Of a DNA stretch of 43,776 nucleotides, positions 42,071 to 43,776 are shown one piece after another. The stretch covers positions 1-43,776 of the forward strand of contig JAGWBA010000012.1 of assembly GCA_021296215.1 (NCBI GenBank), written 5' to 3'. Source of the stretch: Flavobacteriales bacterium (GTDB lineage Bacteria > Bacteroidota > Bacteroidia > Flavobacteriales > ECT2AJA-044). The notes under the pieces were generated by a model. The model saw only the letters and a list, made by a program, of their open reading frames with translations, searched no databases and was not told the DNA's origin. Positions within the stretch are counted from its first letter, which is position 1; the number at the start of each line of letters is the position of its first letter. The translations under genes were made by a program, and so were the position numbers.

Positions 42071-43174
42071 ATGTCGCATTTGTTGGATACGGTCGAAGAG
42101 GCCATCGAAGATATTCGGAACGGGAAAGTGATCATCGTGGTAGACGATGAGGATCGCGAGAACGAGGGGGATTTTGTTGCCGCCGCGGAGAAAGTTACAC
42201 CCGAGATGGTGAATTTCATGGCCGTTCACGGGAGAGGACTTATTTGCACTCCCCTACTCGAAGAGCGTTGCGACGAGCTTGAATTGGAGCTTATAGTCGG
42301 GAAAAACACCGCCCTGCGCGAAACACCCTTTACCGTATCGGTTGATTTGAATGGGCACGGTGTTACTACGGGTATCAGTGCATCGGACCGCGCTAAGACC
42401 ATTCAGGCCTTGGTGGATCCGGCGACGAAGCCCGAAGATTTGGGACGTCCCGGACATATTTTTCCGTTGAAAGCTAAGGCAGGCGGGGTTTTGCGCAGAA
42501 CCGGGCACACTGAGGCTTCGGTGGACTTGGCTCGTTTGGCGGGACTGCAGCCGGCCGGAGTGATCGTAGAGATCATGAACGAAGACGGTAGCATGGCGCG
42601 ATTGCCACAATTGCGTGAGATCGCCGACAAGTGGGACCTGAAGCTTATTTCCATCGAAGATTTGATCGCGTATCGGTTGAACAATGAAACCTTGATCGTA
42701 GAGCGTGAATCTTTTGAAGTGGATACCCCCCATGGTCCGTTTAACTTAACTGCATTCGAGCAAAAAACGAACGGTCAAATTCACATTGCCTTGACCAAGG
42801 GGATGTGGAACGAAAACGACCCGGTATTGGTTCGTATGCACAGCAGCACGGTAAAGAACGATTTGCTTCAAGTATTGACACAATGTTCGTTGCCCGATTT
42901 GAATTCGGCAATGGAAAAGATCGAGGCCGCCGGTTCAGGTGTGATCGTGTACTTGAACATGGAAGGACTGGGATCGAATATTCTCGATACGCTAAAGCAA
43001 ATCAAGGATGTAAAATCAACGCCTCCACGTCGCGATGCGCGTGACTTTGGCGTTGGAGCACAAATTTTACGTTCACTTGGGGTACGCAAGATCAATCTTT
43101 TGACCAATCATCCGAGCAAAAGAGTGGGCCTCGTGGGTTACGGGCTCGAGATCGTGGAGAATACGGCTCCTTAA
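42071..43174 (+). CDS. ribB: 3,4-dihydroxy-2-butanone 4-phosphate synthase with degenerate GTP cyclohydrolase II domain
   Basis: A 367-residue riboflavin-synthesis protein. The N-terminal RibB domain is complete: the Mg/acid motif [10 protein letters not shown] at 25-34 and [12 protein letters not shown] at 145-156. It turns ribulose 5-phosphate into the four-carbon precursor. The C-terminal domain (from about 215) still has the GTP cyclohydrolase II outline ([30 protein letters not shown]). The zinc ligands of E. coli RibA are gone: the VHSECLTGD and RCDCG cysteines align to Thr260, Gln271 and Ser273. So it should not open GTP, and a separate RibA is needed elsewhere. I used the ATG at 42071; a TTG at 42050 is inside the promoter box. 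Confidence 0.93.
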
Positions 43175-43187
43175 GTACTTGTCGGCT

Positions 43188-43700
43188 CTATGTGAAGGTG
43201 ATGTGACCGAGTTCCTGTATCTGCCGATGTAGGTGATCCTTCAGCTCATGAGCCAATTCATGGCCCTCGTATACGGTCATACTTCCATTGACTCGAGCAT
43301 GTAATTCAACATGGTAGTTCATACCCGCCTTTCTTAATAAGCACTTCTCGGTATTCACGATACCAGTGACCTCATTCGATGCCCTTCTGATTCGGTCGCG
43401 CAGATCGTCGTTCAAATGTTCGTCCATGACTTCTCCCAATGCAGGCCTAAAGATCAGGTAGCTGTTGTACAGTATGAATGCGCTTGCAACCAGTGCAGCC
43501 CAATCGTCAGCAGCCTCATGACCAGGCCAAAAATATCCGGCTACGCCAATGCCTACCAGTGCAGCAACCGATGTGATTGCATCGCTTCTATGATGCCATA
43601 CATCGGCTTTTAATGCCGTGCTATTCGTTTCTTCGCTTTTTTTATTGACCCAACGATACGAAGCTTCCTTCCATAAGATAATGCCAAGTAAAACATACTT
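43188..43700 (-). pseudogene. Cation diffusion facilitator, N-terminal half missing
   Basis: An open frame runs from about 43700 down to the stop at 43188, giving about 170 residues. The helix 5 zinc-site motif is HHRSD in ALKADVWHHRSDAITSVAALV, preceded by IILWKEASYRW. The last membrane helix is WAALVASAFILYNSYLIF, and the cytoplasmic ferredoxin-like domain starts at MDEHLNDDLR. This is the C-terminal half of a CDF (DUF-free, about 300 residues) metal/proton antiporter. Helices 1-3 and the start codon are replaced by IS256-family transposase sequence, in another frame. It is therefore a broken gene, or an assembly join. It converges on the ribB-type gene with a 13-base gap. Confidence 0.85.
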
Positions 43701-43776
43701 GTTTGAGCATTTATTGTAGCCAAATATATTTGTTTTATGATGGCTGTTTCGCTCGTGAAGGCTCCTTTTGTTTTGG
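43701..43776 (-). mobile_element. C-terminal fragment of an IS256-family (Mutator-type) transposase
   Basis: On the minus strand, frame starting at 43774, the bases read KTKGAFTSETAIIKQIYLA followed by TINAQT. KTKGAFTSE is the characteristic segment close to the C-terminus of IS256-family DDE transposases (RKVTKTKGAF). It is normally followed by KW and about 25 more residues. Here the match stops near 43700, where the cation diffusion facilitator sequence begins in a different frame. No stop codon or terminal inverted repeat of the element is visible at the junction. The rest of the element would lie beyond the right edge. Confidence 0.75.

Follow-up and report, generated by a model that had tools for sequence, protein, structure and literature searches.

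Based on the comparison of the window (the whole analysed stretch of 43,776 nucleotides, which is the entire contig C12 of a Flavobacteriales draft genome with 135 contigs, 2.53 Mb and 97% completeness) with other copies of the same insertion sequence, the interior of an IS256-family transposase gene is joined to the 3' part of a CDF cation-efflux gene near the contig end. The arrangement very probably arose by insertion of the element in or beside the CDF gene, followed by deletion of the right end of the element together with neighbouring DNA. In the proposed course of events, a multicopy IS256-family element would first have landed inside, or immediately upstream of, a CDF gene that was convergent to ribBA. 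Illegitimate recombination, which we infer along with the order of the two events, would later have deleted the right-hand 102–103 bp of the element, inverted repeat and transposase terminus included, and the DNA next to it, so that the transposase interior came to be joined to the CDF gene at about codon 119. The transporter is dead: on this side of the junction it has lost its start codon, half of the transport core and the part of the metal site contributed by TM2, and its C-terminus is frameshifted.

Table 1. Features at the right-hand end of the window
Feature	Position	Strand	Remarks
ribBA-like gene	42071..43174	+	convergent with the CDF remnant; collinearity with the complete genome G001 extends to this gene
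Frameshift near the CDF C-terminus	43171..43205	-	in-frame end GHITFT, then stop; next frame carries the conserved HIEP, then TST and stop
CDF cation-efflux 3' remnant, 169 codons	43188..43697	-	TM4 through the cytoplasmic ZT_dimer domain
IS256/CDF junction	43697..43698		1-bp ambiguity; placed against the intact right ends on C46 and C29
Internal IS256-family transposase fragment, right-truncated	43698..43776	-	coding frame 43774-43697; contig ends inside

The coding frame of the element piece translates to KTKGAFTSETAIIKQIYLATINAQTS. This 25-residue piece alone is too short for a Pfam match; extended with the C-terminal end of a sister copy on C46, the region matched 184 places in the genome collection, and the best full-length homologues are 75–84% identical and occur across Bacteroidota. 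The full open reading frame of one homologue (L102) scored 389 bits against NF033543 (NCBIfam IS256; cut-off 150) and 322 bits against PF00872 (Pfam Transposase_mut), and the IS256 type is accordingly given by profile for the homologue and by similarity to that protein for the window piece, in agreement with the family named in the preliminary description. The window piece aligns with the copies on C46 (46 of the 79 bp at 96%), C51 (23/23) and C29 (18/18), and all these alignments start exactly at the junction. Relative to the intact right ends on C46 and C29, the last 102–103 bp are gone, corresponding to 30 codons, the stop codon and the right inverted repeat. A junction had previously been placed at about 43700, with no terminal repeat and with about 25 residues lost from the transposase; the junction, the missing repeat and the C-terminal loss all stand, and the position is corrected to 43697/43698 and the loss to 30 residues. 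The window copy can no longer transpose by way of its right end. Another copy of the same element without its right tip is found on C51, and C21:23560-23654 (L036/L081), between rodA-like and peptidyl-prolyl-isomerase-like genes, holds an isolated right end, about 80 bp long, whose interior has been lost.

A search of the same genome for further copies, as the preliminary description had proposed, showed the element to be multicopy. A 55-residue query from the transposase C-terminus matched 17 places, nearly all of them at contig ends, and a pattern search with the two termini found 15 right ends (14 at contig ends) and 15 left ends. Intact termini, either left GAGTCTGTTCAGAAAAGTGTGTCA or right GGGAGTGTTCACTAAAGTGTGTCA, are carried by 29 contig ends; compared as inverted repeats, the two agree in 19 of their 24 positions. 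Terminal inverted repeats of about 20–30 bp, an IS256 trait, are thus present in the other copies at 24 bp and absent at the window junction. Two left/right contig pairs have identical 7-bp flanks (C92/C111, TAGATTA; C93/C106, GGCAGAC) against a chance expectation of 0.014, and in a third pair, C26/C77, the two contigs are neighbours by the gene order of G001, a complete genome of the same genus in which the searched part of the element was not found. Elements of the IS256 family are expected to make target duplications of 8–9 bp; those seen here are 7 bp in the two paired copies of this genome, with none readable for the window copy, and 8 bp (TCGAGTTC) in an Aequorivita capsosiphonis homologue (NZ_AUBG01000013.1, L105). 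The latter, 1,282 bp long, is the closest intact element with readable ends. Bacteroidota elements of this kind resemble that of the window genome in the transposase region (75–84% identity), and the Aequorivita element shares with it the terminal bases GAGTC...CTCCC, a size of about 1.3 kb and duplications of 7–8 bp; unlike the Aequorivita element, the window copy is a remnant without a right end. The full length of the element was not assembled in this genome; the ends were read from aligned copies, since an automatic inverted-repeat search on the homologue loci gave mostly wrong boundaries. A PF00872 search of the bin returned only decayed or doubtful IS256-like pieces, because the contig ends hold too little transposase for the profile. 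Given the many intact termini at contig ends, the paired flanks and the intact Aequorivita relative, the element is an ordinary multicopy insertion sequence. At C99:54-106 (L059/L065), a right end is followed by extra partial terminus copies, GAACACTCCC and CACACTTTAGTGAACACTCCC, which may have been left behind by a nested insertion or an imprecise excision.

The preliminary description had left the choice between two reasonable options, destruction of the transporter by an insertion with an adjacent deletion and an assembly join at a repeat. Among the 29 contig ends with an intact terminus, 26 hold 73–79 bp of the element past unique DNA, and the window end holds 79 bp. Such an overhang is the mark of the assembly graph, in which a contig runs about one k-mer into a repeat and stops at the branch; the contig geometry suggests that the assembler took 43697/43698 as the boundary of unique and repeated sequence, with k-mers spanning it. 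Since the overhang equals that at ordinary element boundaries, the junction is probably a genuine unique-to-repeat boundary, and the contig breaks off 79 bp into the element because short reads do not get across the interior, which occurs repeatedly in the genome. A sequencing or assembly chimera, behind which the true genome would have an intact CDF gene, would suit a junction lying at a contig end beside a repeat, where misjoins occur; it is nevertheless improbable, because identity between the two sides at the junction amounts to about 1 bp and leaves no shared k-mer to drive a repeat join, the overhang is that of genuine element boundaries, the far end of the CDF piece already carries a frameshift, and the bin contains no intact CDF gene. 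The favoured reading is that the end of the contig is repeat-driven and the junction is not, so that of the two options the deletion beside an insertion is preferred on the overhang, the near lack of shared sequence, the absence of an intact CDF gene from the bin and the second CDF lesion.

Other repeats also lie at contig ends. Those of C4, C31, C99 and C111 (L066, L082, L075, L077) carry another repeated element, which starts with TGTAACACTCCCC or TGTAATACTCCCC and on C4, C31 and C99 continues with a start codon and MSGKRRKFSADFKA-like coding sequence. This repeat, which looks like an IS3-type element, is a second cause of the fragmentation of the genome. Furthermore, the ends of C31 and C46 (L006 tail, L072) share an identical stretch beginning CTAAAACAGTTTAGGAGACTTAAATTTAGAAG, which on C31 ends an open reading frame resembling the N-terminal part of an integrase.

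On the other side of the junction, the CDF remnant is in a frame different from that of the transposase and opens at YVLLGIILWKE in TM4, at about residue 119 of 291 in a relative. It matches Cation_efflux (profile positions 109–194 of 198), ZT_dimer and TIGR01297 above their cut-offs, which bears out the earlier assignment of this frame to a CDF transporter entered from inside its fourth membrane helix. Like CDF transporters (TIGR01297/PF01545 and PF16916), the remnant, which is 60–66% identical to its closest relatives in the same order, has TM4–TM6, the dimerisation domain and the TM5 HxxxD motif (HHRSD). In contrast to them, it is without the N-terminal residues (about 118) and the start codon, its first in-frame ATG, GTG or TTG being an internal TTG at 43439, and its C-terminus is frameshifted. 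The full architecture of the family, a six-TM Cation_efflux domain with a two-helix metal site and ZT_dimer, is therefore incomplete in the remnant, which keeps only the TM5 half of the metal site. The frameshift is independent of the junction, and the piece is a pseudogene with two lesions and not a working member of the family. The ribBA stop and, on the opposite strand, the ancestral stop of the CDF gene share the bases TTAA at 43171-43174, which suggests a tight convergent arrangement of the two genes before the CDF gene decayed.

The CDF frame has no stop across the element piece and runs on to the end of the contig (195 aa), which speaks for a functional fusion or an alternative transporter driven by the element. 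Such a product is most improbable and was rejected on frame, start codons and frameshift: the open frame is not that of the transposase, it has no usual start codon before about residue 113, this side of the junction lacks TM1–TM3 and with them the metal ligands of TM2, and a frameshift affects the C-terminus.

Collinearity of the window with G001 extends through ribBA. In G001, katG follows ribBA after about 60 bp, and C26 opens with katG, whose stop lies about 104 bp from the first base of that contig; by this gene order, C12 and C26 would face each other across a gap, which must hold the remainder of the window IS256 copy and may hold further DNA. Of this copy, neither the interior nor the left flank is assembled. 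The start of C26 is neither the left end of the element nor CDF sequence, and against the other contig ends examined and the IS sequence it gave only chance-level 13–16-mer matches. The CDF gene is absent between ribBA and katG in G001, and no close CDF match occurs elsewhere in that genome; the gene was either gained at this locus in the window genome or lost in G001. A literature search found nothing specific to this locus.

The preliminary description had also suggested searching for an intact CDF gene with the same 3' half and for the missing N-terminal half. The bin contains no CDF gene other than the window piece and none with the same 3' half, which argues against an assembly error. The N-terminal half, sought with the first 121 residues of a relative, was likewise absent from the bin, and this negative is weak evidence, because a piece measuring a few hundred bp between repeats would not be binned. 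Within the preferred explanation, a tentative and less probable variant is that the CDF gene was split by the element, with its N-terminal half lying beyond it in the unassembled C12–C26 gap and only the right end of the element, perhaps with a few CDF bases, eroded. The facing contigs and a C26 start without IS left end or CDF sequence, which leave an unassembled stretch, speak for this variant, and short pieces between repeats do drop out of bins; the failure to find the N-terminal half speaks weakly against it. Such a piece in the gap, below the contig-length limit of the bin, could change the description of the CDF gene from deleted to interrupted and would leave the truncation of the element unchanged.

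The locus is a case of ordinary genome decay. That the junction recurs as an active rearrangement, for example in a population in which some members have an intact transporter and others do not, is very improbable; if true, it would make the loss of the CDF gene a switchable, element-driven trait. For annotation, the gene at 43188-43697 is to be labelled a CDF pseudogene, and the break of the contig is explained by the repeated IS256 element. Where no reads are at hand, the length of the overhang at contig ends can help to distinguish true IS junctions from misjoins.
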